Assembly: GCF_000238315.3 (NCBI RefSeq)
Contig: NZ_CP011924.1
Coordinates: 1,962,501-2,026,500 of the forward strand
Direction: 5' to 3'
DNA length: 64,000 bases
Source: Pseudoalteromonas piscicida
Lineage (GTDB): Bacteria; Pseudomonadota; Gammaproteobacteria; Enterobacterales; Alteromonadaceae
Shown here: piece by piece, positions 13,880 through 40,696 of the stretch
How the letters are laid out: every line of letters begins with the position of its first letter
How positions within the stretch are numbered: the stretch's first letter is position 1
Program-made: the position numbers and the translations under genes
Notes under the pieces: generated by a model
The model's database searches: none
Seen by the model: only the letters and a program-made list of their open reading frames with translations
What the model was told of the DNA's origin: nothing

Positions 13880-15538
13880 TTAAAGCAAATCGAAACTTTG
13901 CTGCCCATCTGAGCGAATTGATAGCTTAGAAGCATTGGGAAGCATCTGATATATAGGCAGAATTTGCTTTTCAACGTATTGATAATAATCAATATCTACG
14001 AGCTTGCCTTGCTGCGCAAACTTGGGTCCATCGGTACTTAAATAGTACGGTATTTGTGCCCCCTTTTTGGCGGTTTGCAACAATCCATCTTCGATAGCCT
14101 GTTTCGCCGTTTTTACTTGGGGAGGGATATTTTTTGTATATAGTTCAACAGACTTACCAAGCTTCTTTTTATAAACGAGTTTTTCGTCTACTTTTCCAGC
14201 GAAAATCTCATTTATGTATTGGTGGGTGATCTCAACGGTGTCGAGCCCATCAAACAGCGCGCGAATAATTGCTTGTTGATATTCCTTTGCAATTTCCGTC
14301 CAATCACTACGCACGGTCTCCATTCCTTTAAAAACCAGCTTTTGCTTACCAAGCTCGGTGATCTGCCCAACATATCGCTTTTTAGAGCCGACTTCTTGGC
14401 CACGAATGGTGGGCATAAAGAAAGGGCTATAATGTGTTTCAAACTCTATTTCTAAATGGCTGTGAAGGCCAAAGCTGTCCATCAGCAGTGCGCGCCAGCG
14501 CTCGTTGATTTCCATCATCAACTGCTTGCCGATTGTTTGGCACGCTTCGCTACTCAAAGGCTCAGGTAAACAGACGAAAGTTGAGTCGGTATCGCCGTAG
14601 ATCACTTCATATCCAAGCTGTTCAACCCAGGTTCGCGTTTGCTGCATAATCTGATGACCGCGCATCGTTATCGAGCTCGCAAGACGAGGGTCGTAAAACC
14701 GACACCCCTTAGACCCAAGTACGCCGTACAAACTGTTCATGATGATTTTTATCGCCTGCGAGAGCATCATGTCTTTGTCTAATTTAGCTTGTTCACGTGC
14801 GCTGGAAAGCGCTGCGACTAAACCCGGTAAATGATGTTCCGTGCGACTAAATTTACCTTTATTAAAGCCATCTATGGCATGTTCAGGATGCTGTAATCCT
14901 TCTATTAACCCCATCGGATCAATACAAAAAGTGCGAATAATTGAGGGGTAGAGGCTTTTGAAATCGAGTACCAAAATATTTTGGTAGAGGCCCGGCTTTG
15001 AGTCCATGACATAACCGCCGGGACTGTCAAAGTTAATGCCATGCTCAGATAAATTTGGTGCAATGTAACCACTACGGTGCAGTAACGGTAAATACAAGTT
15101 AGTAAACGCAGCGACTGAGCCGCCCATTTTCTCGAGTTCCAGTCCCGTCAACTGAGTTCGAGCGAGAGCAAAGTCAAGCAAGTTAAGTTTACTAAAAATG
15201 TCGAGCACCAATTGACAATCTTGTAAGTTGTAAGCTGCGAGCGCCGGTTTATCATGATGAAACTGCCTGATGATTTCCTCAAGCCTGTCATCCTGTGCGA
15301 TAAGCTTGGAAGTACCCAAAATCTTCTCAGCTACAAAGCTCAGTTTAAATGTTTCAAAATGATAGGTCGCATTTTTCATCATATCGATGCCATCTAGCAT
15401 CACTCTCCCCGGAATAAATACCCGGGTATAGTTACCTTTGAAGGTCGACATCGCTCCGCCATCTCGTCCTATCGCAAGTGCAACGCCGTTAGCCTGTGCG
15501 CGTTCCACAAGTATTGCGGCATCGAACTCAATCACGTT
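13880..15538 (-). pseudogene. polB: polB (DNA polymerase II), 3' fragment cut by the island
   Basis: Last ~550 codons of host DNA polymerase II. They carry the end of the exonuclease domain and the whole B-family polymerase domain: DFKSLYPSIIR (motif A), KIIMNSLYGVLG (motif B), YGDTDSTFV (motif C), and a C-terminal QQSFDLL that fits a beta-clamp-binding motif. The fragment starts at ..NV-IEFDAAILVE, exactly where the distal 5' fragment at 40002-40696 stops (LIGWNV), so one intact gene has been split by a ~24.5-kb insertion. A GTG at 15535 could in principle start translation, but the product would lack the N-terminal and most of the proofreading domain. Confidence 0.93.
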
Positions 15539-15729
15539 TTTATCTGTAGGGAATTTGTTGACTTTAGAATTATTAAAAAGAAAAATACCAAAATATACAT
15601 AAACTTAATTGCTCATCTCTAGGGTCGATGGTGCTAATACTGAGGAGTCAACGTTGACTTATTTATTACTAGGTAGAATGACTGCTAAAATTTGTAAACT
15701 AGATAAATTTAGAGAATTTGTTGACCTTA
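15534..15729. promoter_or_regulatory. Island left end with repeated GTTGAC boxes
   Basis: The core ACGTT (15534-15538) is followed by GAATTTGTTGACTTTA at 15551-15566, a perfect palindrome AGTCAACGTTGACT at 15646-15659, and a second near-identical direct copy GAATTTGTTGACCTTA at 15714-15729. The same box recurs near the other island end (39937-39948 and, inverted, 39963-39974). Spaced repeats at both termini are what recombinase-binding end sequences look like; the binding protein is inferred to be the island recombinase set. Confidence 0.6.
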
Positions 15730-15785
15730 ATTCAATTCATATTAAAAACTTATAGGACAGTAAAGTATTCACAAAAGTCTAGAAG

Positions 15786-15808
15786 GGCCAAGTTAGTTGA
15801 CCACTACA
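15786..15808. repeat. Solitary end of an IS3-type element
   Basis: GGCCAAGTTAGTTGACCACTACA is nearly the same as the right terminal inverted repeat of the complete IS at 30202-31466 (GGCCAAAATTAGTTGACCACTACA). No transposase frame is left beside it, so it is a relic. It lies ~100 bp upstream of the island polB and could affect its promoter. The rest of 15730-15910 shows nothing else. Confidence 0.6.
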
Positions 15809-15910
15809 TACCCTCTAATTACCCGATATTAAAATCCCCCCCTTTTGTCCAAGGATTTTTGATATCATCATCAAGGTAGAAATACATTTCAAAGTAATTC
15901 AGGTAGTCGA

Positions 15911-18271
15911 TTGAACATCAATGATGGTTTTATTTTAACCCAGCAAGCAAAAGACAAAGGCGACAGAACAGTTATCGAGCTTTGGATTTCAACTCTTCAC
16001 GGGCCCGTAAAGCTTGAGATTGAGGGAGAGCGCCCAACCTTTTTTATCGAAATTAGCGATGTCCAAAGAGCTAGGACATTATTCATCTATCAAAGCATCA
16101 AGTTTGAAATAAAACCTTTACCTCTGAAAACGTTTCAAAATTACTCTGTCGCAGCTTGTTACTTCTCGACTATTCGGGATGCTAATAAAGCTGTCAAAAT
16201 CCTTGAACAGAACAGCGTCGTTGTTTACGAAAGTGATATTCGCCTTTCTGACAGATATTTGATGGAAAGATTTATTAAAGGAAGTATTGAGTTTACAGGA
16301 CATCAAGTCATACATCGTGATCACAGCTTTATTTCTGCCTACAAATGTCGCCCTGGACATTTCAGACCAAGCTTGTGTGTAGTATCTCTTGATGTTGAGT
16401 GTTCAGAGAATGGGGCTCTCTATTCTGTTGGGCTGGATTGCGAAAGGGATAGCCGAGTAATTATGATTGGCCAACCTGAGCCAGCGGAGACACCGATACA
16501 ATGGGTAAAAGATGAATCATCTCTTTTGCTCGCGCTCAACAAATGGTTTCAGCTATTCGATCCTGATGTCATCATTGGCTGGAACATTATAGATTTCGAC
16601 TTTCGCCTGTTAGACCAACGCGCCTTAAATAATAAATTATCACTGGCCATTGGTCGTAAAAACAGTAATGCATTTTTTCGTTCAGGTAATAACCAAAAAG
16701 GCTTTATTACAATCCCAGGACGAGTTGTAATCGATGGTATAGATATGCTCAAAACAGCGACCTACCATTTCCGCTCTTGGTCTCTCGAATCCGTCTCACA
16801 AGACTTGTTAGGTGAAGGCAAAATTATTCGAAATAAAAATGACCAAATGGAAGAGATAAATGAAATGTTTCTCTCGGACAAGCCTTTACTCGCCACGTAC
16901 AATCTCCAAGACTGTATTTTAGTCAATAAAATCTTTGAAAAAACCCACCTGTTAGATTTTGCAATAGAACGTTCCTGCTTGACCGGCCTTGAATTAGATC
17001 GCGTCGGTGGCTCGGTCGCAGCATTCACTAACCTATACCTACCACAGCTACATCGTGCGGGTTATATAGCTCCCAATATGCACCCAGAAGATTGGACTGC
17101 TTCTCCGGGGGGGTATGTTATGGACTCCATTCCTGGACTATATGATTCAGTTATAGTTCTTGACTATAAGAGCCTTTATCCTGCAATTATTCGTTCATTC
17201 CTTATTGATCCGGTTGGACTCATAGAAGGGCTTAAACTGCCTGTGGGCAATACAAAAGATAGTGCTATCAAGGGGTTCCGTGGTGGACAGTTTCATAGAA
17301 CAAAGCATTTTTTACCTCAAATGGTAAAAGATATTTGGCAAGCTCGTGACCAAGCAAAGAAAAGTAATGAACATGCGTTTTCTCAAGCTTTAAAAATTAT
17401 TATGAACTCCTTCTATGGTGTGTTGGGCTCTTCAGGCTGCCGCTTCTTTGATACTCGTTTGGCTTCAAGTATTACTATGCGCGGGCACGAAATAATGAAA
17501 ACTACTAAGCGACTGATAGAAGAGCAAGGCTACGAGGTTATCTACGGCGATACTGACTCAATTTTTGTCGCTCTTAATAGAGCCCATTCTGATCGACAAG
17601 CTGATAATATTGGCAAGAAGCTCATTAAAAAAATAAATGTTTGGTGGAAACAAGAGCTAAAGCAACGTTTTGGGACTAACTCATTTTTGGAGTTAGAGTA
17701 TGAAACACATTACCGTAAATTTTTGATGCCAACGATTCGCGGCTCAGAAGCTGGGTCAAAAAAGCGCTATGCCGGATTAGTAAGTAAAGGAAACGGTGAG
17801 CAAATTGTCTTTAAAGGTCTTGAAAGTGCTCGTTCAGACTGGACGCTTCTCGCTCAAGAGTTTCAGAAAAACCTTTATATGATGGTATTTCATAACCAAA
17901 ATCCATGTGATTATGTGAGAAACATAGTTGAACGAACCCACATGGGCGAATTTGATCACATGTTGACTTATGAGAAGCGGTTACGGAGACGATTGCATGA
18001 GTACGAAAAAAATGTCCCACCTCAAGTTCGTGCGGCACGGATAGCTGATGAAAAAAACGCACAATTAGGACGACCGCTGCAGTACCAAAACCGAGGCCGT
18101 ATCGAGTATTTAATAACTATCAATGGTCCAGAACCAAAAGAGTTTTTGGAAAGCTCTATTGACTATCAACACTATGTAGATAAACAGCTTAAGCCTATTG
18201 CTGAGGCTATCTTACCTTTTGTTGGCTACAGCTTTAAGCAACTTATTGAGCCTCAATTAGGGCTTTTTTAA
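15911..18271 (+). CDS. polB: Island-borne complete DNA polymerase II (B family)
   Basis: 786 residues, the length of E. coli Pol II (783), and complete. N-terminal domain; exonuclease motif SLDVECSE with D161/E163; DVIIGWNIIDFDFRLL near 222; EVYG-type polymerase motifs DYKSLYP (from D418), KIIMNSFYGVLG, and YGDTDS (D547, D549); conserved late block YEKRLRRRLHEYEKNVPPQVRAAR; C-terminal QLGLF clamp-binding motif as in E. coli. No in-frame ATG precedes the open frame, so TTG at 15911, after a weak AGG, is the likely start. It runs opposite to the disrupted host gene and is clearly divergent from it, so it is an imported orthologue and not a duplicate. Pol II does translesion and repair synthesis, so it can replace the lost host function. 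Confidence 0.93.
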   Translation: MNINDGFILTQQAKDKGDRTVIELWISTLHGPVKLEIEGERPTFFIEISDVQRARTLFIYQSIKFEIKPLPLKTFQNYSVAACYFSTIRDANKAVKILEQNSVVVYESDIRLSDRYLMERFIKGSIEFTGHQVIHRDHSFISAYKCRPGHFRPSLCVVSLDVECSENGALYSVGLDCERDSRVIMIGQPEPAETPIQWVKDESSLLLALNKWFQLFDPDVIIGWNIIDFDFRLLDQRALNNKLSLAIGRKNSNAFFRSGNNQKGFITIPGRVVIDGIDMLKTATYHFRSWSLESVSQDLLGEGKIIRNKNDQMEEINEMFLSDKPLLATYNLQDCILVNKIFEKTHLLDFAIERSCLTGLELDRVGGSVAAFTNLYLPQLHRAGYIAPNMHPEDWTASPGGYVMDSIPGLYDSVIVLDYKSLYPAIIRSFLIDPVGLIEGLKLPVGNTKDSAIKGFRGGQFHRTKHFLPQMVKDIWQARDQAKKSNEHAFSQALKIIMNSFYGVLGSSGCRFFDTRLASSITMRGHEIMKTTKRLIEEQGYEVIYGDTDSIFVALNRAHSDRQADNIGKKLIKKINVWWKQELKQRFGTNSFLELEYETHYRKFLMPTIRGSEAGSKKRYAGLVSKGNGEQIVFKGLESARSDWTLLAQEFQKNLYMMVFHNQNPCDYVRNIVERTHMGEFDHMLTYEKRLRRRLHEYEKNVPPQVRAARIADEKNAQLGRPLQYQNRGRIEYLITINGPEPKEFLESSIDYQHYVDKQLKPIAEAILPFVGYSFKQLIEPQLGLF

Positions 18272-18478: not shown

Positions 18479-18479
18479 T

Positions 18480-18653: not shown

Positions 18654-19697
18654 ATGAAATTCTATACTACTTTTCATAAATATTATTGCGGAATTGACCT
18701 TCATGCACGCATTTTATACGTTTGCATTATTGATGAGCGTGGTAATAAAGTTGTTCATCAGAAAATAAAAGCTGATAAACATGAATTACTTAGACTGATT
18801 TCGCCCTATCTCGAAGATATCGTTATCGGTGTTGAATGCATGCATTGTTGGTATTGGGTGAGTGATTTATGTGCTGAACATGATATTGATTTTGTGCTTG
18901 GTCACGCGCTTTACATGAAAGCTATTCACGGTGGTAAAGCCAAAAACGATAAGATTGACTCTTATAAAATCGCTAGTCTATTGCGTGGTGGCAACTTCCC
19001 GCTGGCTTACAATTATCCTGCTAATATGCGTTCAACACGCGATTTACTTCGCAGACGAACGCGACTGGTTCAGCATGGCGCACAACTGAAAGCGCATATA
19101 GTTAACACAAATAGCCAGTACAACTACCCGCCACTCGAATTACACATGAAAAACAAATGTGTTCGACAAGAATTCCAAACGCGTTTTGACGACCAAGCCG
19201 TACAACGCAATGTTAACTTTGATTTAGCCATCCTCGATGCCTACGCAGAAGAGCTTAAAAAACTTGAATATTATTTAGAGAGCAAAGCTAAAAAGCATCA
19301 ACCAAACTATTACGCACAACTGCGAACCATACCAGGTATTGGTCTTATTCTAGCCATGACTATTTTGTATGAAATTGGTGATATTAACCGCTTCGAGTCT
19401 GTTCAAAAATTTGCATCTTATTGTCGACTAGTTAAGTGCAAAGCAGAATCTGCTGGCAAAACCTATGGCACCAGCGGCAATAAAATTGGAAATGGACACT
19501 TGAAATGGGCGTTCAGTGAAGCCGCTGTACTTTATTTACGTGGAAATGACAAAGCTCGGTGCTACTTAAACAAATTACAAAAACGCATGAGCAAAGCCAA
19601 AGCACTTTCAGTGCTCGCCCATAAGCTCGGTCGTTGTGTTTATTTTATGCTTAAGAACAAAACGGTATTCGACGATGAACGCTTTTTAAAAAGCTAA
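18654..19697 (+). CDS. IS110-family transposase (complete)
   Basis: 347 residues. The N-terminal RuvC-like DEDD domain is seen as YCGIDLHARIL (D near 15), VIGVECMHCWYW (E near 63) and AKNDKIDSYKIASLL (two Asp near 102-105). The C-terminal Tnp20 domain has LRTIPGIGLILAMTILYEIG and the serine segment YGTSGNKIGNGHLKWAF. Preceded by AGGAGAAAGC. IS110-family transposases recombine DNA with an element-encoded guide (bridge/seek) RNA. This copy is intact, in contrast to the 5'-truncated second copy directly downstream. Confidence 0.92.
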   Translation: MKFYTTFHKYYCGIDLHARILYVCIIDERGNKVVHQKIKADKHELLRLISPYLEDIVIGVECMHCWYWVSDLCAEHDIDFVLGHALYMKAIHGGKAKNDKIDSYKIASLLRGGNFPLAYNYPANMRSTRDLLRRRTRLVQHGAQLKAHIVNTNSQYNYPPLELHMKNKCVRQEFQTRFDDQAVQRNVNFDLAILDAYAEELKKLEYYLESKAKKHQPNYYAQLRTIPGIGLILAMTILYEIGDINRFESVQKFASYCRLVKCKAESAGKTYGTSGNKIGNGHLKWAFSEAAVLYLRGNDKARCYLNKLQKRMSKAKALSVLAHKLGRCVYFMLKNKTVFDDERFLKS

Positions 19698-19997
19698 GTC
19701 GCACAATGGGGTGAGCTCTACACCTAACTAGATAAGCACGAACAACCATGCATTATTTGTGTTTTTGTCAGTAATAGCTGAATTTTACAGGTAAGTGTTG
19801 TCGAAGTAATAAGCTATTTGGCCTTGATTAGACACCCCATTGGTGCGCATTTATTTAAGCAATGAATTGAATCGTTTACACCTTAGCTGAGCCTTTAACT
19901 AACTGGACGAATGAGCCATCCCCTTGAGTAGTGCAAGATTAAGGTTAACCGATGAATGTCTAGTGGCCCTAAACGATAAGTTGTATCGACTGATTTA
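19698..19997 (+). ncRNA. Candidate bridge/seek RNA region, copy 1
   Basis: A 300-bp non-coding segment 3' of the transposase, where IS1111-group elements are reported to encode their guide RNA. It contains long-range complementarity between GCACAATGGGGTG (19702-19714) and CACCCCATTGGTGC downstream, so it can fold. No RNA boundaries or guide loops were assigned. Confidence 0.4.
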
Positions 19998-20673
19998 TAA
20001 TATGCGTTCAACACGCGATTTACTTCGCAGACGAACGCGACTGGTTCAGCATGGCGCACAACTGAAAGCGCATATAGTTAACACAAATAGCCAGTACAAC
20101 TACCCGCCACTCGAATTACACATGAAAAACAAATGTGTTCGACAAGAATTCCAAACGCGTTTTGACGACCAAGCCGTACAACGCAATGTTAACTTTGATT
20201 TAGCCATCCTCGATGCCTACGCAGAAGAGCTTAAAAAACTTGAATATTATTTAGAGAGCAAAGCTAAAAAGCATCAACCAAACTATTACGCACAACTGCG
20301 AACCATACCAGGTATTGGTCTTATTCTAGCCATGACTATTTTGTATGAAATTGGTGATATTAACCGCTTCGAGTCTGTTCAAAAATTTGCATCTTATTGT
20401 CGACTAGTTAAGTGCAAAGCAGAATCTGCTGGCAAAACCTATGGCACCAGCGGCAATAAAATTGGAAATGGACACTTGAAATGGGCGTTCAGTGAAGCCG
20501 CTGTACTTTATTTACGTGGAAATGACAAAGCTCGGTGCTACTTAAACAAATTACAAAAACGCATGAGCAAAGCCAAAGCACTTTCAGTGCTCGCCCATAA
20601 GCTCGGTCGTTGTGTTTATTTTATGCTTAAGAACAAAACGGTATTCGACGATGAACGCTTTTTAAAAAGCTAA
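19998..20673 (+). pseudogene. 5'-truncated IS110 transposase (second copy)
   Basis: This repeats transposase residues ~124-347 (NMRSTRDLLRRRTRL.. to DERFLKS) without the DEDD catalytic half. The in-frame lead-in from ~19924 (SSARLRLTDECLVALNDKLYRLIY) is just the translated 3' non-coding tail of copy 1. It keeps the Tnp20/serine domain but should be inactive alone. Confidence 0.92.
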
Positions 20674-21155: not shown

Positions 21156-21542
21156 TCAATTTAATTCTACTGGCAGACTAACCGAAATACCGCAGTCTTG
21201 ACCATAGCTGAAGCTTAAAAAATAATGCTCTTTGGATTTAGCTATTGCAGTAAACCAAACTTTCAAAATGCCATTTTCGTTGACTGCTTGCATGGGTGTA
21301 AAAAAGGTTGGGTTACCCAAGCTACCCTTGAAAACAGCAGCATTTTGAAATTTTAAGCCATCGATAGTTTTCGGAAGCGAAGTAATAACGCTAAGATCAT
21401 TAGCTTTGTTCGTTTTTTCAATTTGAAATAAATGGGAATACTGTTGGTTCCATTTTTCAAACTGTTTGTTAGTGATATGGCATGACGTAGCGTTACTGAA
21501 AAACGATACAAAATAAAGTGCCAAAACTATTCGCAACTCCAT
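21156..21542 (-). CDS. Cassette gene: small secreted protein of unknown function
   Basis: 128 residues. Residues 1-20 (MELRIVLALYFVSFFSNATS) form a signal peptide, and a cysteine follows at once. This may be a lipoprotein-like or simple signal peptidase I cleavage; the lipobox is poor (NATSC). The mature part is rich in Phe/Ser with no family I recognise. It ends next to an attC and begins 14 bp from the preceding cassette boundary, a typical single-gene integron cassette. Function not assigned. Confidence 0.6.
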   Translation of the reverse strand: MELRIVLALYFVSFFSNATSCHITNKQFEKWNQQYSHLFQIEKTNKANDLSVITSLPKTIDGLKFQNAAVFKGSLGNPTFFTPMQAVNENGILKVWFTAIAKSKEHYFLSFSYGQDCGISVSLPVELN

Positions 21543-21555
21543 TCCTCCCAGAAAC

Positions 21556-21650
21556 TATAACGCTCACATTTGCGACGGCTTTGTAGCGAGGGAGGAGCGT
21601 AAAAGCCGTCCAAGCCACTTAATGGCTGATGCAACATGCGCTTGTTATAT
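21556..21650 (-). other. attC site
   Basis: Minus strand: R'' TATAACAAGCGC, overlapping the stop of the DUF2971-like gene, and R' GAGCGTTATAG at the other end. The arms GGACGGCTTTTACGCTCC and AAAGCCGTCGC pair. It separates two cassette genes. Confidence 0.85.
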
Positions 21651-22598
21651 TTGTTCGAATTCAATGCTGTAATAGTCCATATTCTTTGTGGCTTTCCAAG
21701 TATCTAAGTATCCAGTTGAAAGCGCATAACTACCTTGCACATCAGCTTTAGTTATTTCAGAATTTAAACCTATCAAACAATTATTTATTGAGCTTGATGA
21801 CAATTTCATCTGATAAATGACTTGTGGGTTCTGGCTAAGCTTAGCCAGCTCCATTGCCACAGCAGTTCTCTCAGCATCATCAGAAATCTCGTAAAGGTTT
21901 ACACAACATGAGTTGTTTTCAGGGTTTATAACGGAGTATGACGAAGCTCCTATTATATTTTTGATACGTTCATTACTAATGATATCAAGGTTGGGAATTT
22001 CTATTCTGTCAGATTGTTCTAACCTTAGGACAACACGGTGTTCTTGTTCATAAATCCACTCATCGCTCTTTTGTAAGAACACCTCATAAAGAATCCTATC
22101 AGCACCTTCTGCCGATATATTTGAATAGTCATAATCAAACTTGTCATTCCGGTATCGCAACCCTTTTCTGTATGAAACAGGCTTTGGCACACCATCAAAC
22201 TGCGACCACTCTTCACCCCAAGCGGAGTTTATAAAAGAGTCAGCTCTAAATAGGTTTTCAAAAATTGAACCGACTGCTGGTAAATGTGCAACACCAGCAA
22301 CAACTCCCTTATGTTCATCTGCGTAGTGCGCCCACATAAGAAGGTTTTCTTTGTTTTCGGTAAAGCTTATAACGCCAATATGGTGCATTCTAAAGTCGAC
22401 GTACTGAGAAAATGTCAACTCACCATATTCTGAATCCCAAGATGTAGATTCATCAAAGTGGCTAGCCAAGTCATCCAAACTTTCTCGGCAAAAAGCAGCC
22501 TCAAAAGGGTCATTTAGAGCACTTGGTTGTGAAAGACGAATAAAACCCTCTTCGAAAAAGTTTCGGGGTTTGCTCATATACTTAAAGAGCTGCTTCAA
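21645..22598 (-). CDS. Cassette gene: DUF2971-family protein
   Basis: 317 residues. The start MKQLFKYMSKPRNFFEEGFIRLSQPSALNDPFEAAF and the segment NLLMWAHYADEHKGVVAGV are hallmarks of DUF2971, a family without an established biochemical role that is frequent in defence and mobile regions. Later QEHRVVLRL also fits the family. The stop overlaps the attC R'' site, and the ATG lies just inside the next cassette boundary. The lack of its own promoter is usual for integron cassettes. Family call fairly sure, function unknown. Confidence 0.75.
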   Translation of the reverse strand: MKQLFKYMSKPRNFFEEGFIRLSQPSALNDPFEAAFCRESLDDLASHFDESTSWDSEYGELTFSQYVDFRMHHIGVISFTENKENLLMWAHYADEHKGVVAGVAHLPAVGSIFENLFRADSFINSAWGEEWSQFDGVPKPVSYRKGLRYRNDKFDYDYSNISAEGADRILYEVFLQKSDEWIYEQEHRVVLRLEQSDRIEIPNLDIISNERIKNIIGASSYSVINPENNSCCVNLYEISDDAERTAVAMELAKLSQNPQVIYQMKLSSSSINNCLIGLNSEITKADVQGSYALSTGYLDTWKATKNMDYYSIEFEQI

Positions 22599-22624
22599 AG
22601 GTTGCCTCTTCTTAGGATAAAAAA

Positions 22625-22732
22625 TATAACGCTTGCCTAACCGGCGTAAAATAGCAGGCTAAAATTAGCGACGAAGGAGCGCAAGCCTGCTGTTTTGCGT
22701 CCCTTGGTTTAGGCACTTGCTATAACTCAATT
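22625..22732 (-). other. attC site
   Basis: Minus strand from GTTATAGCAAGTGCCTAAACC to GGTTAGGCAAGCGTTATA. The outer arms pair well (GCCTAAACC/GGTTAGGC), as do the inner ones (ACAGCAGGCT/AGCCTGCTATT), leaving a ~30-base central part. The R'' reads TATAGC instead of the usual TATAAC. Confidence 0.85.
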
Positions 22733-22734
22733 AG

Positions 22735-22962
22735 TTACAAGCCACGTTCGTTAATGATAGTGGCTAACTTTAAACCTTTTCGAAACTCTGTAGCGTAACT
22801 TTCGTTACGGCCAATTGATAAAGCGAAATCAATTGGATCTATTTCTCTCAATTGCTCCGCATATTTAACAACAAGGTACATATTTACTGCATCTTTATTT
22901 TTATCCAATGCGGCTTGAGCAACTTCATTTTTAATATGTTCGATTAATTCACTTGTATTCAC
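22735..22962 (-). CDS. Cassette gene: 75-residue protein of unknown function
   Basis: A small helical, acidic protein (MNTSELIEHIKNEVAQAALDKNK.. ending SYATEFRKGLKLATIINERGL). No signal peptide or membrane segment. The order helix-helix-GRNESYATEFRKG suggests a compact DNA- or protein-binding fold, but I do not recognise a family. It is preceded by only a remnant cassette boundary (22986-22993) and followed by a full attC, so it may share a cassette with the 163-residue gene upstream. Start by ATG; no clear SD site. Confidence 0.55.
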   Translation of the reverse strand: MNTSELIEHIKNEVAQAALDKNKDAVNMYLVVKYAEQLREIDPIDFALSIGRNESYATEFRKGLKLATIINERGL

Positions 22963-22985
22963 GAATACTCTAAATTTTGCTATGA

Positions 22986-22993
22986 GTTATAAC
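22986..22993. other. Remnant cassette boundary (core GTTATAAC only)
   Basis: The 44-bp gap between two cassette genes contains the core GTTATAAC, identical to the boundary at 23512-23519, but no arms. Either the attC was deleted, or the two genes form one cassette and the match is chance. Confidence 0.35.
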
Positions 22994-23006
22994 AGCTTAT
23001 TATTAC

Positions 23007-23498: not shown

Positions 23499-23511
23499 AG
23501 TTCCTCCATGA

Positions 23512-24710: not shown

Positions 24711-24733
24711 TTTGATTGAGTGACCACTGAAGA

Positions 24734-26479: not shown

Positions 26480-26504
26480 GATCTCTCCAAAAGTAAATTA
26501 AGGT

Positions 26505-27390: not shown

Positions 27391-27418
27391 GTAATATCTC
27401 TTTATTGAAGCAGGGAAA

Positions 27419-30277: not shown

Positions 30278-31458
<1,181 letters not shown>

Positions 31459-32862
31459 CCACTACACATTGGTATTTTTGGAAACACTGGTAGCGGTAAA
31501 TCAAATACTCTAACGAAACTCTTCACCACTTTGTTCGATGAAAAGCATGAGCAAATCAAACCTGTCAGTAAGTTCGTGCTGCTTGATTTCAATGGTGAGT
31601 ACATCAAAGATCAAATCGTATCACTGGAACATAAGCACGCTATAGATCTGAATACGAATACAGCAGTCGATCAATTCCCGTTAGCAGAAGACGAATTCTG
31701 GAATGCGGAGACGCTTTCAATTCTTTTCCAAGCCACGACCAATACACAGAAACCGTTTATTAATAGAGTCCTGCAAGGACGCTCAAAGTATGGCTCTGGT
31801 AAGGCGAGTGCTCTAAGTTACTTAAAGTATACTATTAAGTTCTGCTTAACTTCATCTTCTCAGAAGCCTGAAGTACTCGACCTCATCAAGAGTGCTCTAA
31901 AGAGCACTGATAGCGTAGATATCCTCAAAGATGTTAGTTGGCATGGAAGTAACTTTAAAATTCGTGTTGGGACAGGTTTTGAATTCTTTAATAGCGAAAG
32001 CAAATATAATCTCTACCTCAAAAATACTGTTGATAGCATTCAGATTAATGACCTTGACGCATTTCAGGAATTCAAAATTCTGTGCAAATTGAAGTTGATT
32101 AATGATTTGATGTTCAACTTTGTTCAATTCGATCACATACAGCCACTATTAAAACGTGCTGAATCCTCGCTAGGAGGGTTATCCAAGGTAATCAAAGTAG
32201 AGTCTAGTGTTTCTGCTGACGATAAGGCACTAACCGTCATTTCGCTGCGTAATTGCAACCAAGACGTGAAGAAAATCATTCCCCTTCTTGTAACGAAGCA
32301 CTATTACAATTCTCATAAGAATCAAATCAAGACAAGCCCACCAGAAAAGACACTGCACCTAATCATTGATGAAGCACATAACATCCTTTCTCAGCAATCA
32401 GTACGTGAACAGGCTAACTGGAAAGACTATCGTTTAGAGTTGTTTGAAGAATTGATTAAGGAAGGTCGCAAGTTCGGAATTTTCCTAACATTATCGAGTC
32501 AACGACCTGCGGATATATCTGCAACGATTATGTCCCAATTGCATAACTTCTTTATCCATCGTTTGGTTAATGACCGTGATTTGTTCTTACTAGATAACAC
32601 CATTAGTACATTAGATTCTGTTTCTCGATCATTGATTCCTAACCTATCAAGAGGCTCTTGCATTATTACAGGTACTTCGTTTGATCTGCCTATGCTGATC
32701 CAAGTGGATGAATTAAGCGACAACAGCAAACCAGACAGTAATGACGTTCTTTTAGGTAACCTCTGGGCAGTTAAAACCGAAGAAGAGTCTGATCGGCCCT
32801 GAATTAGTCCAGTATGGGGGGCTTCCTAGTTGTCAACACGTTTTGGGGCATTTTCGATTTAG

Positions 32863-33284: not shown

Positions 33285-33551
33285 TTAGTGAAGCTCTTTA
33301 GCAAATATTGACGCAGCTTTAATCAAAATATCTCGCTCTCTTGATAACTCTTCTAGACGTTTTTCAAGTGAATTAACAATCAAGCTATATTTCGAGTTTT
33401 CTAGTTGCTTCGCTGATTGTATCCAATGATACAAAGTGCTCTGACCTATGTTCAAATCTTTAGCAACATCTGCAACCCGCTCTCCTTCAGACAATACCCT
33501 TCTGGTCGCTGATAACTTTATTTCATCTGAGTAAGTCTTACTCACAATCAT
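33285..33551 (-). pseudogene. Orphan IS3-family OrfA (transposase remnant)
   Basis: 88 residues, MIVSKTYSDEIKLSATRRVLSEGERV: HTH (VADVAKDLNIGQSTLYHWIQ) and zipper (SLEKRLEELSRERDILIKAASIFAKELH), complete as an OrfA. No orfB follows it on the minus strand, so it is a fragment of an IS and is different in sequence from the remnant at 32986. The open frame extends upstream to ~33800 but that part overlaps the XRE gene and is not coding-like. Confidence 0.75.
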
Positions 33552-33641
33552 ATTCCTCGATAGTAGCTTAGGATTCCTAAGTATACATGATAGAGTAAAA
33601 CTTAGAGAATCTAAGTACCAGCTTTTTATTATGATTAACCT

Positions 33642-33980
33642 TTGGATTTTAGTAACCCCCTCCCGGCGCGGCTTAAAGAGGCTAGGACAAGAGAAAAAAT
33701 TTCTCAAAGAGACTTGGGAATTAGAATTGGTCTGGAGCCAAGTTCTGCGAGTGGGCGTATGAACCATTATGAAAAAGGCAGACATACACCAGATTTGCAA
33801 ACTTTAAAGCGAATAGCTGAAGAACTACATGTTCCACTAAACTATTTCTTTTGTGAAAATGATGATATGGCCAAGCTTGTTATGTTATTCGATCAGTTAT
33901 CTCAAGAAGAAAAGCTGAAGTTTTTAAATCAACTTGAACAAAATAAAAATTCAAAACATCGTCCAAAAGGAAGCACTTAG
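33642..33980 (+). CDS. XRE-family transcriptional regulator
   Basis: 112 residues with a TTG start (no in-frame ATG nearby). HTH_XRE at residues 8-68: LPARLKEARTREKISQRDLGIRIGLEPSSASGRMNHYEKGRHTPDLQTLKRIAEELHVPLNYFF, close to phage Cro/C1-type regulators such as those ending in ..LNYFFCENDDMAKLV. The C-terminal region is short and charged with no protease/LexA domain. It lies tail to tail with the recombinase module and could regulate the island; the target is unknown. TTG suggests low expression. Confidence 0.82.
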   Translation: MDFSNPLPARLKEARTREKISQRDLGIRIGLEPSSASGRMNHYEKGRHTPDLQTLKRIAEELHVPLNYFFCENDDMAKLVMLFDQLSQEEKLKFLNQLEQNKNSKHRPKGST

Positions 33981-34052: not shown

Positions 34053-34634
34053 TTAATTATGCTTCTGAGGTGAGATATTGATTGATTTTATTAGTTGCTT
34101 ATTAGTTTCACGTAATTCAGCAACTTGATTTTGTAGAGTTTGATTCTCACGTCGTAACTCAGCCAGTTCCGCTGATATGTTTTTGTGAGACTCAGTTAAT
34201 GTACTACTTAGCAAAGCCTCGGCAATCTTAGCGTAATCATGATTTCTATACTCCATTATCTGATGTCTGATTAATGCATTTTCTTTACGTACCTCTTCTG
34301 CTGTTTTCTTTCGGGAAACTCTAGAGCGAAGCTTTTCTTGAGCTAAAGCAATTAGCTCTTCCGTACGGTCTTTAATCCACTTATGGAGATCTGGGTTTTT
34401 TCGCTCACTAATATTACTTTTGTCACACCCAGCTGCCAAAGCGACTTGAGAAGCAACAATCTTACGACATTTCCCATCGGAAGCTTTCCCAGCTAGTATT
34501 TCAGCTTTCTTTGCTTCGAACTGTTTTTTAGCTTCTAAATAAAGCCTTCTCTGGAGTACAGTTGCATTGGTAATCCATTCTGGTTCATGGAGAGAGGAGC
34601 TAGCCGTTTTCTTATAATTTAAAAGTCTACTCAT
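34053..34634 (-). CDS. Small coiled-coil protein of the recombinase module
   Basis: 193 residues, basic and helical. An N-terminal region contains a possible HTH (VASQVALAAGCDKSNISERKNPDLHKWI), and the C-terminal coiled coil (ISAELAELRRENQTLQNQVAELRETNKQLIKSI) covers about residues 145-185. Its start overlaps the stop of the 649-residue recombinase by 8 bp, so it is the last gene of a four-gene operon. Position and shape recall TnpC of Tn554-type elements or GmtX of gamma-mobile-trio islands, accessory proteins of multi-recombinase modules. The family name was not verified. Confidence 0.6.
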   Translation of the reverse strand: MSRLLNYKKTASSSLHEPEWITNATVLQRRLYLEAKKQFEAKKAEILAGKASDGKCRKIVASQVALAAGCDKSNISERKNPDLHKWIKDRTEELIALAQEKLRSRVSRKKTAEEVRKENALIRHQIMEYRNHDYAKIAEALLSSTLTESHKNISAELAELRRENQTLQNQVAELRETNKQLIKSINISPQKHN

Positions 34635-36576
34635 TGTCCATTTCCTTTAACCGACTTTCACCAACCCTTATATGCTTTCTACTTGCATCAGCTAAGCGTG
34701 AAAGTTCTAGAGGTAGAGCCTCTATGAACTCCTCATGCGCTATTAACGAACGTTCAATCCCTACTCTTTGTAATTTTGTATTGCAACTATGAATACAGCT
34801 AGCACAGACCTCAAAAGAGCGCAGTTCTTCGACCATTGTCGTTCCTAAATCTTTATTGAAACATTTTGCGTATTGCTCCTCCCCTTTCCTGAGTAGACAG
34901 TAGCCCCACTCATCAACAGTAATAATAATACTCTCAGAAAGGTTTGCTATAGTTAGTTCAAAGTCGTCTGGGGAGATCACGCTGGCCTTATTCAGCTCCA
35001 TCCGAGCACGCTTTGCAGCTGGTCCGTATAATCTAATCATTGATTCATCACTTCCTCCGATACTACGTAAAATTTCTTCGATATAAGAGTTTTCAATAGC
35101 ATCGCGTTCGCGTTCTCTAAGAGCCTTCTCATAGTATGCTCTTATAAAGTTATCGGACAATCGGTGCCGAAAATGCTCTGAAATCCGCTCTACAACAGCG
35201 CCATCAAATCTACGTATACAATATTCAGCCCAAAGGTGCCTAGCCTGATGAGGACTAGTTTCACTATGAATACTGGCCAGTTCTGGGTGTTGGTTTATAA
35301 CTTTTCTGTAAAACTTTTGAAATGCTCCTCTAATAGTATTTTCAGGGTGCTCGCCCCAAATGCCAACCTTCAACAAATCGGAAAGAGTTGCTCGTTTACC
35401 GAGAGTACATAAATGGCTACACCTAAACGATCTAAGAAATACAGGAGCATTTTCTGACATTTTATCAACGTATGAGCATTCAATTAACGTATTCAAGGCA
35501 AAAGCTGTCATACCATGAAGATATCTAGGAGCTTTTATAGAATAATTCGTTTTATGGATCTGATTTCGAAACTCCCATGTCCCATCTTTGTGGTGAATAA
35601 AATCTCTTGTATTAAATGTCGTCCACTCACTGATACGAAAGCCGCTTAAAACTAAAAGAATGTATGTAGCAGCTGCATAGAGCTCTGCAACGAATGCACT
35701 AAAAGCTCCTTGCTTAAAAAAATCGACCGATTCTCCAGCTAACTCTTTGTTTAAGATTAATTTTAATTCAGCCCTCTTTGCAGAGAGCACTTTAAAATCA
35801 CTTCGTTCAGAGTTATATATTCTATTTTCTACAAACAAGTTATCTTTTGAAGATAAGACGTTTGCAGCGCTTATATCATGATTATCTCTGATGAATTTGA
35901 AATATGCTCTAGCTGCATTTGCATGGGGAGATTCTAGCAGTTGTATTGCACTTGCCAATACAACCATACCATTTTCGATAGGAATAGATCCCAAACTACC
36001 GCCTTTAAGCCAAGCGCCTAAACTCATACCAGATTTAGACAAATAAGGTTCAAGTAGACTCTCAGAAAAACGTTTACTTACCTCTACACGTAAGCCATCT
36101 ACAATTGATGCATCCATGAAATACTGATGACTTCGATACAATATATGCCTATACCCTTCTTCCTGCCCATGGTGTCGCACACATATATCACCCTCATCAT
36201 CGACATATAGCATGACGTATTTAAGGAAAGAAACAACATCGGTCTCAGTCCATCGTGACAAAGGAGTGCGGGAATGATTCAACTCCCAATATTCACAGAG
36301 ATCCCTCAACTTATTGATAATAGGGTTCCAAATACCTTGATCACTAACTACAATTTTTTGGTCATTATTAACATATCCATCAGCACGCCTTAAAATAAAT
36401 GATTGCGCCCAAATAGTTTTATCGTCACTACACTCCCACTCCGAAAAATCAATTCTTCGTATCTGTTTATCCTCATCATGGATGTACCAAGCTGGATCAC
36501 CCAAATTATTAGGATGTTTGTTGCCATTCTTTTCAAATAGTGAAGGACTGATCCCCTCGAGATTCTTGGCTCTCAT
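34627..36576 (-). CDS. Tyrosine recombinase of the island module (649 residues)
   Basis: The C-terminal half has the full tyrosine-recombinase set: Arg in YILLVLSGFRISEWTTF, a Lys-bearing strand (HKTNYSIKAPRYLHGM), SPHQARHLWAEYCIRRF (HxxR), SEHFRHRLSDNFIRAYYEKA (His and Tyr). The N-terminal ~270 residues are not recognised; near the C-terminus CASCIHSCNTK, with nearby Cys, may bind metal. It overlaps the upstream gene by 4 bp (ATGA). Size and position match the TnpB-like or GmtZ-like component of multi-recombinase mobile elements. Probably directs integration and excision together with its two neighbours. Confidence 0.82.
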   Translation of the reverse strand: MRAKNLEGISPSLFEKNGNKHPNNLGDPAWYIHDEDKQIRRIDFSEWECSDDKTIWAQSFILRRADGYVNNDQKIVVSDQGIWNPIINKLRDLCEYWELNHSRTPLSRWTETDVVSFLKYVMLYVDDEGDICVRHHGQEEGYRHILYRSHQYFMDASIVDGLRVEVSKRFSESLLEPYLSKSGMSLGAWLKGGSLGSIPIENGMVVLASAIQLLESPHANAARAYFKFIRDNHDISAANVLSSKDNLFVENRIYNSERSDFKVLSAKRAELKLILNKELAGESVDFFKQGAFSAFVAELYAAATYILLVLSGFRISEWTTFNTRDFIHHKDGTWEFRNQIHKTNYSIKAPRYLHGMTAFALNTLIECSYVDKMSENAPVFLRSFRCSHLCTLGKRATLSDLLKVGIWGEHPENTIRGAFQKFYRKVINQHPELASIHSETSPHQARHLWAEYCIRRFDGAVVERISEHFRHRLSDNFIRAYYEKALRERERDAIENSYIEEILRSIGGSDESMIRLYGPAAKRARMELNKASVISPDDFELTIANLSESIIITVDEWGYCLLRKGEEQYAKCFNKDLGTTMVEELRSFEVCASCIHSCNTKLQRVGIERSLIAHEEFIEALPLELSRLADASRKHIRVGESRLKEMDNE

Positions 36577-38729
36577 AACTTCTCCACAAAGATAGGTGGT
36601 GCAGGGATATCAAAGCACTTCATAAGCTCAATACCAGACTTAACTGTATGCGGCTCAAAGCTATTTAAAATTCCATCGATATAGATATATCGAGATAGAT
36701 AGTAAGCTTTTTGGCGATTGGATATAGCTATTTGCTCTTGAAATTTTTTCTTTAATTCCGCTTGATATGACAGCATTAAAGCAGCTGTGATTGGAAGCTC
36801 AACTATTAACTTTTCTGATCCTGTTTTGATATCACCAAAACAACCTACCTCAGTATCGTGTTTTTCGCACTCTTCAAGCAACTCAGAAAAAGCTACCATA
36901 TCTTCAGGTTCTTTTTGAAAGCTTTTAAGGCCCAGCACGTTTCTGGCCTCTGACAAAGAAACGACCTTAGTTTTTGAATTTGATAGAACTGCAATCAGGT
37001 TCTGAGCATCTTTGATCATCTCTTCAGTGACTACCTCTGAAAACCACTTACGTTCGTTGATTCTTGTCAGTGTCTCACTTCTATTAATATAGATATTCTG
37101 CCTCACATCTGGTGTATGAGCATTCAACGCAGCATTCACTTCAGATTGACTAAACATCTCATACGCACTTTGCTTTTCCCGAATTCCACGCTTATCGTTA
37201 ATAATTGCAACAGACTGCGCCACATATGAAAGTCCTAAAGATCTTAAGGCTAACTCTGTACTTCCTTTAGTTTGCCCTTTATCTTTCTCGAGATACCAAA
37301 GATCATTTTGGGTGCATATATCTGTTATAAGCTCAATAAATGGCTTCGTGATTGGGTAGTTTTTTAAGAGCCAACTTCTTAAATATGATCCTTTTAATGT
37401 TACAGATAGAATAGGATCTAAGTGGGAGCATCGTTCAAATGTTAGTCTTAGTTGAGTCGGTTGAGGATTTACTCCTGCTAAGCTCTTAGCATCATTATCA
37501 TTGCTAGCCAAAGCAATGTATTCTTTATATGCATTATGTACTGCTGAGCCTTTACTATACATTTGCGAAGTATACTCTGTGGCTGTGGATCTATTCTTAC
37601 CAAAGTCCCAAGATCCTGTTTCTCCTGAAATATAATAGTCTCCAACCTTTAGATCAATTTGGCCTGATAATTGTATTCGTTCACTTGCAAGAAGCCATGA
37701 AATCATAACCTTTTCTGCTTGAATTGGTTTGTCTAGTGATTCATATGAACACCTGTCAAACCTTGCTGAGCTTACAACTTTTCCCTTTTTCGCTTTATGT
37801 AGTAGATAGTTCCGATCTCGCCTCAAGAAGCCGTTTTTTGTTAGATGCAATTTCATAAGTTCCTTTTGCTCTTCTGGCGTAAAAGTAACTTTGCTATTTT
37901 GTATAAGCCGACGAGAGGAAGGACAATTCAATAATAAACGTTCTATTAGCAATGGGTTGTCAGATGAACTTATAGCATTCCATAGCGGTCTTATAAATGC
38001 CTCTACAACATCAGCTTTTACACTTCTTATAGATCCATGCCTAACTTGCTTAGCAGTCGCTCCAGTTAATTTGTTAAGATTGGCTCTTGCCTCTTTAACC
38101 TCGGCATTTGAAAGAAGGTAACTCCTTTGTTCTCTTAAGATTTTAAGCATGACAACACAAAACATACGTAATGATTTTATAAGTGTTTGATCGCCATACT
38201 CTAATTTACTCAGTTCTGATAATGCTTTTCGAGTGGTAGATGATTGGCGAGAAATTCTAGGAACTCTCTTCTGGGTTGCATTTACTCGAGCATGGGCAAT
38301 TGTAGCTCGCTTATTGCCTTTTTCTGTTGCCAAATACCATTTCAGCGCTGTATTTACAGTGGCAACATCACCCTGAATAGACACTTTTCGTTTCTTTAAA
38401 TAGCTGGTCCAGTCTGGGTGGAGTGCTGTCAAATCACACTCTCCTTCTTCTCCAAACTTTTCATCAAGAAAATTGAACAACTTTATGAAACATCGGTACT
38501 TCCCTTTCCGAGTGATACTAGCTTGACTAAGGAAAGGCTCTGACTTGCAGTAAGCTACTATAGCCAGACACAGAGGATCATTCTCAAGTCGATTAGGTAT
38601 ACGGAGTGTATGGTAAGAAGGAGTATGTCTCCTAGAGTTAGAAGCTGTAAATTTTGCAAATGTTGGATCACTGTTAATTGGTGCCACCTCACCCAAAGCA
38701 TAGGCGGCTAACCAACTTTTATCTTTCAC
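36573..38729 (-). CDS. Divergent recombinase-like protein of the island module (718 residues)
   Basis: Second gene of the operon, overlapping its neighbours on both sides. The N-terminal region KYRCFIKLFNFLDEKFGEEG resembles a core-binding domain. Later MISWLLASERIQLSGQIDL could hold the first Arg, and LNAHTPDVRQNIYINRSETLTR looks like the terminal His/Tyr block. I do not find an HxxR box between them, so catalysis may be lost or the motif is strongly diverged. A regulatory or structural partner of the two clear recombinases is plausible. The last ~100 residues include VGCFGDIK and hydrophobic helices of unknown role. Confidence 0.6.
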   Translation of the reverse strand: MKDKSWLAAYALGEVAPINSDPTFAKFTASNSRRHTPSYHTLRIPNRLENDPLCLAIVAYCKSEPFLSQASITRKGKYRCFIKLFNFLDEKFGEEGECDLTALHPDWTSYLKKRKVSIQGDVATVNTALKWYLATEKGNKRATIAHARVNATQKRVPRISRQSSTTRKALSELSKLEYGDQTLIKSLRMFCVVMLKILREQRSYLLSNAEVKEARANLNKLTGATAKQVRHGSIRSVKADVVEAFIRPLWNAISSSDNPLLIERLLLNCPSSRRLIQNSKVTFTPEEQKELMKLHLTKNGFLRRDRNYLLHKAKKGKVVSSARFDRCSYESLDKPIQAEKVMISWLLASERIQLSGQIDLKVGDYYISGETGSWDFGKNRSTATEYTSQMYSKGSAVHNAYKEYIALASNDNDAKSLAGVNPQPTQLRLTFERCSHLDPILSVTLKGSYLRSWLLKNYPITKPFIELITDICTQNDLWYLEKDKGQTKGSTELALRSLGLSYVAQSVAIINDKRGIREKQSAYEMFSQSEVNAALNAHTPDVRQNIYINRSETLTRINERKWFSEVVTEEMIKDAQNLIAVLSNSKTKVVSLSEARNVLGLKSFQKEPEDMVAFSELLEECEKHDTEVGCFGDIKTGSEKLIVELPITAALMLSYQAELKKKFQEQIAISNRQKAYYLSRYIYIDGILNSFEPHTVKSGIELMKCFDIPAPPIFVEKL

Positions 38730-39912
38730 TTACATCTTCCATTGAGATGTCAAGATCTGATCTATTTATCCTTCGACCAGATGTGAGTGCATCAATCGTA
38801 ATATAAGCAGCCAAGGTTTTTTTATCAACATGACCAAGACGGACCAATAAAAGCTCTTTTGGATCTGTACCATCCTCGTATGCCTCTCCAACTAGGTCAG
38901 TTGCATAACTATGCCTTCCTGAATGAAAGCTGATGTCTTTAAGGCATTTCTTCGCAAGAATAAACTTGCGCTTAGGGTTTGTGCAATAGTCACCGTAGTT
39001 AGCCAGCAATGATGGCATTGCCTTATTCCGTGCCTGTTTAAACCAAATAGTTGCAGGCGTGCTCTCGCTAGAAAAAGCAAGTCCATCGCTACGACACAGA
39101 AGTTCTCCTTCCGGAAGATTACTCCGAGGACCATTCAAAAAACGTTTAATAAACACAATATCCTTTTGTTTTATCACTATAGGCCTCTCCTTATTACCCT
39201 TTTCCGAACGAATATCCATTTCTATCTCCGATTCACCTCGGACACGCATCTCAGAAATTAGAGCTCGTAATCCCCTAGTTGTAAAATTTCCTTTAAGAGT
39301 TACTTCGTGGGCTCTGAGACCACTATTCCTACCAAGACGAATCCCGATAAGATTCCTCATTCGAATAAAAGCTGACTTACTTGTGACGTTATTTTCGATT
39401 TCATCAAAAAGCAATCTATCTATGTACTGTGATTTCACTCTTCTTGGAGTTATTGATCCTGAACGGTACTCTGTTACTGATACACCTTTATTAAAATAAA
39501 AAGAGAAATCTGTATATGACTCTAAAACTGGTAGTTGCTCTAGTGAAAATTTGTAGAATGCACTGAGTGTTGAGGCTGCCCGCTGTATAGTGGCATCAGA
39601 ATTACCACGCTCAACTTTTAAAAAAGACAAGTAGCCAGCGCGCTCTGCATCAGTCAGCCGCCGCCAATCTAGAGAGACCTTTTCGTGAAGTTTTTCTGGG
39701 AATTCGAGAGTGTTTAAAAACAAAGCCAGATCACTAGCTCTAGATTTCTGTGTACTGAGCTTTTGCCCTTTAGACGAACCGAGCAATAGAAAGAGGCAAG
39801 CAGGTACATGGAAATGCTCTTCACCAAAAGGCCTATCGTCACGAATCAAAAAGTATGTATCGATCAGACCAATTGGGCTATTAATTCCAGTAATTTTGAA
39901 CTTTTTCCACAT
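38719..39912 (-). CDS. Tyrosine recombinase, first gene of the island module (397 residues)
   Basis: Complete catalytic set: LGRNSGLRAHEVTL (Arg I), SEKGNKERPIVI (Lys), ISFHSGRHSYATDLV (HxxR), LVRLGHVDKKTLAAYITI (His/Tyr). The N-terminal core-binding domain includes LALFLNTLEFPEKLHEKVSLDWRRLTDAERAGYLSFLKVERGNSDATIQRAASTLSAFYKF. It starts 90 bp from the right island end and its promoter region contains two GTTGAC boxes, so it may regulate itself. The order (short recombinase, two long recombinase-like proteins, small coiled-coil protein) resembles Tn554 TnpABC and the GmtY-led gamma-mobile-trio; which of the two is closer was not tested. Confidence 0.88.
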   Translation of the reverse strand: MWKKFKITGINSPIGLIDTYFLIRDDRPFGEEHFHVPACLFLLLGSSKGQKLSTQKSRASDLALFLNTLEFPEKLHEKVSLDWRRLTDAERAGYLSFLKVERGNSDATIQRAASTLSAFYKFSLEQLPVLESYTDFSFYFNKGVSVTEYRSGSITPRRVKSQYIDRLLFDEIENNVTSKSAFIRMRNLIGIRLGRNSGLRAHEVTLKGNFTTRGLRALISEMRVRGESEIEMDIRSEKGNKERPIVIKQKDIVFIKRFLNGPRSNLPEGELLCRSDGLAFSSESTPATIWFKQARNKAMPSLLANYGDYCTNPKRKFILAKKCLKDISFHSGRHSYATDLVGEAYEDGTDPKELLLVRLGHVDKKTLAAYITIDALTSGRRINRSDLDISMEDVSER

Positions 39913-39936
39913 AAGAAAATATACGTAGGCGATTTA

Positions 39937-40006
39937 TGTTGACTTTAGTAGGTAATCAATATAAGTCAACAAATGAACTTAAAAAGTACTCATCTTGATA
40001 AACGTT
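39937..40006. promoter_or_regulatory. Island right end with GTTGAC boxes
   Basis: TGTTGACTTTAG at 39937-39948 and AAGTCAACAAAT at 39963-39974. The second is the exact inverse of ATTTGTTGACTT at the left end (15553-15564). The host junction core ACGTT is at 40002-40006. Also the probable promoter of the recombinase operon. Confidence 0.6.
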
Positions 40007-40696
40007 CCACCCAATTAACACATCTGGGTCTAAACGATTCACTTGTGTTACTAGCTCTTCTAATAACGCAATTTCATCTTCAACCCAAACGACATTGACG
40101 GCAGCATGCTGTGCCTCACCTATCATAATCACCAGCTTTTCCGTATCGGTCACTAAGCCCACCGAAAACAAGACCCCCTCGCCGTTACATTCTATATCGA
40201 TAGAGAGCATTTCAAGGTGTGGCCTATAATCATCACAAGCTTTAAATTGCGCCTGAGTAATTTCGATGTAGCCTGACTTTTGCATGGCTTTACCTTTGAC
40301 CCAAGCGGCTCCGCGAATAAAGCGCTCCATTAAATAGCGGTCGGAATGGCGAATATCTTCTTCATATAATGCGACTTTATTTTCAAGTAGCTGTTTTGCC
40401 TCATAGAAGTGATTCAAAGTACGAAATTTCACAACACCAACAGGGGCTTGATCGAAGTGCTTTAGTTGACTTGGCAAGATGCTAAACTGCAACTGAGCGC
40501 GACTTAGCAGCAGCTCTACTTCCGTTTTTTTATCTTGTTTAATGAAAAAAAGTGGCTGCTCATCCTCTACCCACACCTTGAGTAACTGATGTTGCGATTT
40601 GAGCCAATAACACAAGCGCAGTTGGCCATTTACCTGCATCTGCTGTCTCGATAAAACAAAGCCCTGATATATCGCTTGTGCCAACTCCAATACCAC
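40002..40696 (-). pseudogene. polB: polB (DNA polymerase II), 5' fragment cut by the island
   Basis: First ~231 codons of host Pol II: N-terminal domain, RHSDRYLMERFIRG, and the exonuclease motif MLSIDIECNGEG, up to DPDVLIGWNV. It then reads into island DNA for 14 foreign codons (YQDEYFLSSFVDLY) and stops at 39956. The start is a GTG after AGG. The product would lack the rest of the exonuclease and the whole polymerase domain. It is divergent from dinG; the 155-bp gap holds both promoters. I saw only a poor LexA-like CTGTTTATTGAACATA, although both genes are SOS-controlled in E. coli. Confidence 0.92.

Follow-up and report, generated by a model that had tools for sequence, protein, structure and literature searches.

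An integrative element in Pseudoalteromonas polB that carries a putative replacement polB

The gene for DNA polymerase II (Pol II), polB, is cut in two in Pseudoalteromonas piscicida by an integrative element that brings with it a complete and divergent polB of its own. The DNA analysed is a window of 64,000 nucleotides (C1:1962501-2026500) from a 5.49 Mb genome assembled in two contigs at 100% completeness (G000); coordinates without a contig or locus prefix are window positions, G numbers denote genomes and L numbers fetched loci. We judge it probable, at about three chances in four, that an element of the strand-biased circularizing integrative element (SE) kind, specific for one polB codon, carries as a fixed component a full-length polB that replaces what its insertion breaks. 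Comparison of sequences across genomes lends good support to the idea that the carried gene would compensate for the loss of the host copy.

The split host gene and the element within it

The host polB lies in two pieces, a C-terminal open reading frame (ORF) at 13880-15535(-) and an N-terminal ORF at 39956-40696(-), both of which are matched by Pol II models. An earlier note, made from this sequence alone, had placed the cut at GWNV|IEFD, with the halves 24.5 kb apart, and had taken them for one gene; the comparison with empty sites confirms the cut, since the N-terminal part ends in LIGWNV and the C-terminal part starts with IEFDAAI, and relatives run unbroken through GWNVIEFD, which bears out the common origin of the halves. 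The empty site that the note suggested seeking in related genomes was found in seven relatives that are 97% identical over the C-terminal part (G071, G072, G018, G075, G083, G034 and G045, relatives found by name being Pseudoalteromonas), where the gene is uninterrupted and reads GGATGGAACGTGATTGAG or close variants across the insertion site. The features that define the insertion are as follows.

13880..15533, minus strand: host polB, C-terminal part from IEFD onward (Pol II model; 97% amino-acid identity to intact polB in seven relatives; stop-free)
15534..15544, minus strand: attR, comprising the 6-bp core AAACGT (15534-15539; host site GAACGT) and the C' end GATAA (15540-15544)
15557..15801, no strand: subterminal GTTGAC/GTCAAC repeats on the attR side, at 15557, 15647, 15653, 15720 and 15796; also at 39938 and 39965 near the other end
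15911..18271, plus strand: element polB, 786-residue Pol II of Vibrio type (Pol II model, tree, structure alignment)
34053..34634, minus strand: srap-like protein, 193 residues (weak coiled-coil matches)
34627..36576, minus strand: intB, large tyrosine recombinase, 649 residues (R-H-R-H-Y residues present)
36573..38729, minus strand: tfp-like protein, 718 residues (recombinase catalytic set not found)
38719..39912, minus strand: intA, tyrosine recombinase, 397 residues (family scan; conserved catalytic residues)
39997..40007, minus strand: attL, comprising the C end TTATC (39997-40001) and the 6-bp core GAACGT (40002-40007), the same as at the host site
40002..40696, minus strand: host polB, N-terminal part up to GWNV (Pol II model; empty-site comparison; ORF extends to 39956)

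Comparison with the empty sites (L047-L050) sets the element at 15540-40001 (24,462 bp) plus one 6-bp core. Fourteen codons of element sequence extend the host N-terminal ORF before a stop is reached, so that 39956 is the end of this ORF and not the junction. The attL site reads GGGTG-GAACGT-TTATC, with a core equal to attB, and attR reads GATAA-AAACGT-GATTGAG, with a core one base off. The host halves have ratios of nonsynonymous to synonymous substitution rates (dN/dS) of 0.03-0.08 against the seven relatives, with 0.04-0.06 between intact pairs; no prolonged decay of the halves is seen, so that the insertion looks recent. A chance split or pseudogene is ruled out, as the identical codon is struck in different hosts with element ends alike. 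Assembly error is unlikely because the genome is complete in two contigs, and because the joint is repeated in a second two-contig genome (G082), that of another, distantly related Pseudoalteromonas species.

At the end adjoining the host N-terminal part, four overlapping genes on the same strand have the order intA-tfp-intB-srap. Residues R200, R333, H361 and Y370 of IntA are invariant across seven sequences, and R314, H443, R446, H471 and Y481 of IntB are kept across six, while the tfp-like protein gave no integrase match at E<=10 and no RHRY set could be seen by eye; profiles of neither tfp nor intB matched a PDB entry. In SEs the same gene order is found, attL retaining the host core and attR having that of the donor, according to excerpts of PMC10214605 and PMC9345347 (all comparisons with published elements made here draw on excerpts of the papers cited). 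Because gene order, catalytic residues and the behaviour of the 6-bp core fit published SEs, the element is assigned to the SE type by its anatomy. Less clear are the inverted end repeats, which are perfect only over TTATC/GATAA and weak beyond, with shared GTTGAC motifs further in; published SE repeats are imperfect over 13-19 bp.

That the island is instead a GInt or a Tn554-type element seems improbable, although each of the three groups works with two to three recombinases at a core of roughly 6 bp. GInt (ginABCD) further shares a four-gene operon at one end, variable cargo and a 6-nt staggered core, and Tn554 has two tyrosine recombinases, a small auxiliary protein and a 6-bp footprint. 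However, in GInt ginA and ginB are catalytic and ginC lacks the residues, with no target-gene copy described in the excerpt of PMC5385486, whereas here the catalytic residues are missing from the second gene and present in the third, which is the SE order; Tn554 has no counterpart of tfp, as far as the excerpt of PMC10214605 goes. No conjugation or mobilization gene was named among the scanned island ORFs of at least 100 residues. A plasmid or phage vehicle is ruled out by the lack of tfp matches at 1e-5 among 72,556 plasmid and 50,697 phage records, by the weakness of the only three plasmid matches to intB, and by plasmid polB matches that are all below 60% identity; neither intA nor polB had a confirmed relative among viral contigs. 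The genes are sparsely distributed in the genomes sampled, with tfp in 1 of 295 genomes of the order and the intA profile, at 1e-25, in 1 of 369 of the class, each time the window's own genome, G082 not being listed in these samples. Four further intA-tfp-intB-srap sets of like size and order occur in Pseudoalteromonas (L120, L122, L124, L126), two of which seem to adjoin a truncated gene (ion-channel-like and SDR). In one of these sets, srap has a RecD2-like helicase nearby (L124:9948-12104).

Recurrence at one codon and the carried polymerase

A search of 108 Pseudoalteromonas genomes with the element polB gave a polB match in all 108, of element type in five: the window genome, G082 (95% identical), G012 (86%), G079 (82%) and G077, whose copy is in two frames (82% over residues 156-786 and 68% over the first 159). 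None of the five has an intact native polB, and the other 103 genomes include 102 native matches without stops. The note had proposed a search for other islands with polB cargo, and G082 supplies one: a recombinase set (94-99% amino-acid identity) and the element-type polB are inserted at the same host polB codon, with other cargo, in a host polB only 45% (N-terminal) and 60% (C-terminal) identical to that of the window. Nucleotide matches between the two elements cover window positions 15521-18276 (95%) and 33127-40030 (96-96.5%), with no match between them. Synonymous divergence (dS) is 0.119 for polB, 0.120 for intA, 0.124 for intB, 0.083 for tfp and 0.025 for srap, and saturated in the flanking dinG; the value for polB is akin to those of intA and intB, and hence polB travels with the recombinases. 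By these comparisons the two genomes hold separate insertions of one element, and polB belongs to its backbone. The attR-side GTTGAC/GTCAAC repeats number five in the window and three in G082, where the cores are GAATGT at both ends and hence uninformative on host or donor origin.

A third insertion at this codon was found in Vibrio anguillarum DSM 21597, in which the host N-terminal part is followed by intA (66% identical) and the start of tfp (50%), while before the C-terminal part stands an attR that shares the GATAA end and the GTTGAC motifs. Its attL core is GAGCGT and its attR core AAATGT; its own empty site was not seen, and three of the 39 Vibrio natives that could be read have GAGCGT (40 were fetched by hand-picked coordinates from 193). 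This genome probably shows the same arrangement as the two Pseudoalteromonas, and we infer that its polB sits inside the element. The wider survey covered 196 Vibrio genomes, with a polB match in 193 and more than one in seven, among which only V. anguillarum has the pieces on separate contigs. The remaining six (G411, G459, G539, G541, G570 and G580; L106-L118) have adjacent pieces and no island, ruling them out as further insertions; in G541 and G580, open frames of 793 and 820 residues span most of polB, with one poorly matching stretch.

The carried gene starts 371 bp from the junction, in the opposite orientation to the host polB. The note's description of a complete 786-residue Pol II with all motifs is upheld by alignment with the Escherichia coli Pol II structures 1q8i and 3k57, which covers all of the protein from residue 5 onward. 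The motifs aligned to 1q8i are DVE/DIE, GWN..FD, YNLQD/YNLKD, DYKSLYP, YGDTDS, KKRY and the terminal QLGLF, making the exonuclease, polymerase and clamp sets complete; GWNV belongs to exonuclease motif II. The two polymerases are divergent, as the note had held, the element protein being 52% identical to the host C-terminal part and 36% to the N-terminal part. In a tree of 35 hand-picked full-length rows (5 element-type, 12 Vibrio native, 17 Pseudoalteromonas native and 1 outgroup; G077 excluded), the five element proteins form one clade (100/100) that groups with two Vibrio natives (100/100), apart from the Pseudoalteromonas natives (99/99), with the outgroup and some natives flagged by the program as long-branched. 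On this phylogeny, the element polB is of Vibrio origin. Among the element copies dN/dS is 0.056-0.17, several dS values exceeding 1, and in the pairs with least saturation it is 0.17 (dS 0.119) and 0.106 (dS 0.498); judged by these ratios, the element copies are under purifying selection.

Promoter scanning returned 9 sites against 7.9 in shuffles. Separately, a LexA-like palindrome of the CTGTAATTATATACAT type stands between the divergent dinG and polB in several Pseudoalteromonas natives, and is weaker in the window's clade (40697-40851). Before the element polB copies, no such palindrome rose above shuffle level, but 7/8 core matches arise in 17 of 300 shuffles; a replacement polB freed from SOS control is at most hinted at by this pattern.

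Proposed compensation and its alternatives

The proposed sequence of events is that IntA and IntB, with Tfp and Srap, would insert a circular element at the 6-bp core, at one codon of the GWNV motif, destroying the host polB; the circular copy would be made via one-strand exchange, as the SE literature suggests. The element polB, expressed from inside the element, would then supply DNA polymerase II, lowering the cost of insertion and making the element hard to lose. Ultimately, the foreign gene may outlive the element as the sole intact polB, an order of events suggested by decayed loci. In G012 (P. caenipelagi) dinG is followed by unrelated genes, an intact element-type polB and then host polB C-terminal fragments with stops; a short N-terminal remnant beside dinG is visible by eye and was not returned by tblastn. 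No tfp was found in this genome, and intB gave only a weak match to a 925-residue frame on another contig. In G079 and G077, host polB fragments remain beside dinG and the element-type polB is elsewhere (L038, L041), where the surrounding ORFs gave no match to the window recombinases. As these two genomes share the polB neighbourhood, they count as one history.

Several observations weigh against compensation by a fixed, carried polB. In G077 the element-type copy is frameshifted and the native one broken. The native polB of G078 (C11:11204-13348) has two in-frame stops, and no replacement was found; equally, polB looks locally broken in G411, G459, G539 and G570, with no replacement found in these four of the six Vibrio genomes checked, and 3 of the 196 Vibrio genomes lack a polB match, two of these genomes being of about 1 Mb. 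Because of these cases, polB loss can be tolerable, as far as the sequences go, unless the broken copies are draft errors. Furthermore, the V. anguillarum polB (80% identical to the window copy) is on a third contig, C107, unjoined to the insertion, and the two SE-like elements that seem to adjoin truncated genes show no second copy of those genes in the roughly 17 and 26 kb fetched on the element side. The earlier note's proposal of a carried polB that compensates for the disruption is supported in part, and indirectly: membership of the backbone in two insertions, purifying selection and retention in G012 speak for it, and the unreplaced losses in G078 and four Vibrio, with the frameshift in G077, speak against it.

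The carried polB could alternatively be ordinary cargo, acquired by chance in a polB-targeting element and with no offsetting role. The cargo of such elements varies and polB is dispensable in some lineages, yet we doubt this explanation, as the carried gene is the very gene struck, is kept at the same end of two elements that have no DNA match over window positions 18276-33127, with a dS like that of the recombinases, and persists in G012, where recombinases were not found. Two unrelated events, an older gain of foreign polB and a later insertion into a redundant native gene, would account for the element-type copies at another locus in G079 and G077. This history is very improbable for the window, given that polB lies inside the element ends in both G000 and G082 with a dS like that of the recombinases, that the host halves lack relaxed evolution, and that the seven 97% relatives have one polB match each, which is native.

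A stronger, though still unlikely, contender is that selection acts on the island through a different trait, above all its anti-phage cargo, with polB compensation a minor by-product. The window element has OLD/GajA-like and SIR2-HerA genes, and the defence cargo of the G082 element consists of Gabija and Septu; against this, an insertion sequence (IS) interrupts the window HerA, and polB is common to both elements whereas the defence cargo is not. This explanation and compensation are mutually compatible: hosts may select the element for its defence genes, while polB would hold down the price of the insertion.

Compensation by the carried polB could also be extended, as a tentative suggestion from the alignments that we hold with well under even confidence, to a target-resistant allele that would both replace the enzyme and leave the element without a further target. 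GWNI, with a core that ends AT, is read at the crossover codon in five element-type copies, those of G000, G082, G012, G079 and V. anguillarum. In native genes Val with a GT-ending core prevails, in 38 of the 39 readable native Vibrio and 43 of 44 native Pseudoalteromonas rows (43 of 103 genomes, one held twice, chosen by search similarity; the remaining row is GWNI), and at the three occupied sites the cores end in GT at both ends. Telling against resistance are the relocated, frameshifted G077 copy, which has GWNV, and two Vibrio natives with GWNI (the L083 contig is in the 39-row set and L082 outside it). Moreover, the element copies form one clade, so that their GWNI counts as a single evolutionary observation. 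If true, one insertion would immunise the cell, prevent self-insertion by the element and leave the cell dependent on it, providing a selfish route for foreign replacement of a core repair gene across families.

Known relatives, cargo and neighbouring genes

The closest precedents are elements that sit in bcp and recA. SE-6283 (Tn6283) and related Vibrio SEs sit in bcp and carry a bcp homolog, which its authors describe as appearing "as if it complements" the disrupted gene (PMC9345347); the copy is 54.8% identical to the E. coli product, and maximum growth rates were equal with and without the element, with bcp deletion deviating, in an excerpt that speculates on compensation and refers to the recA mobile element (RME) (PMC5991714). 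SE-6283 and the polB element share four recombination genes at one end, a 6-bp core, insertion in a conserved gene and a divergent copy of the target. Here, however, target and copy are polB, the copy is at the far (attR) end facing inward, and decayed host copies with a surviving element copy are visible. The RME of Vibrio cholerae, inserted in recA, protected E. coli from DNA damage; it too has a DNA-repair target, a full divergent copy at one end, which groups with other Vibrio, and an integrase at the other (PMC4405046). Its excerpted description differs in a phage-type integrase and XerS rather than the four-gene set, in both orientations, in excision that restores the site, and in a LexA box before recA (PMC4405046); the window element has polB, not recA, as target and cargo. 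In view of these elements, which likewise carry a copy of their target, the earlier note was too strong in calling a full-length orthologue in the opposite orientation less usual (PMC9345347, PMC4405046). No earlier report of an SE in polB was found among the open-access listings and paper excerpts consulted; the supplementary list of 33 further SEs of PMC10214605 lay outside these and could hold one. The present element is of an already known kind and adds a form that targets polB.

Integration into a conserved gene should call for some means of keeping the harm small. Here a full putative replacement is kept across hosts and cargo, and at older loci it outlives the host copy, which allows compensation and addiction to be tested directly by comparison. 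A DNA polymerase thereby joins the precedents of bcp and recA, revealing one route by which core repair genes are exchanged between bacterial families.

The remainder of the element, identified by family scan, consists of transposase genes and cargo.

18654..19697, plus strand: IS110-family transposase
19924..20673, plus strand: partial IS110-family transposase, adjacent to the preceding one
21156..28334, minus strand: cargo block, including unknowns
21645-22598, minus strand: DUF2971
23607-24710, minus strand: PIN_12
24800-26479, minus strand: OLD/GajA-like ATPase-TOPRIM
26572-27426, minus strand: DUF4238
27738-28334, minus strand: small tyrosine recombinase (Phage_integrase, 198 residues)
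28611..32802, plus strand: cargo block with SIR2 (28611-29750) and HerA in two parts (29747-30214, 31531-32802)
30242-31458, plus strand: IS3-type pair interrupting HerA
33285..33800, minus strand: IS3-type first-frame ORF, 92-93% amino-acid identity in G082

The second block resembles a SIR2-HerA type defence pair in which HerA is split by the IS3-type transposase pair. A 49% relative of the 198-residue Phage_integrase protein lies near the SE-like set of G008 (L124:50-673). Outside the element, two large, similar tandem genes beside polB (7210-13508) look TonB-dependent-receptor-like by eye.

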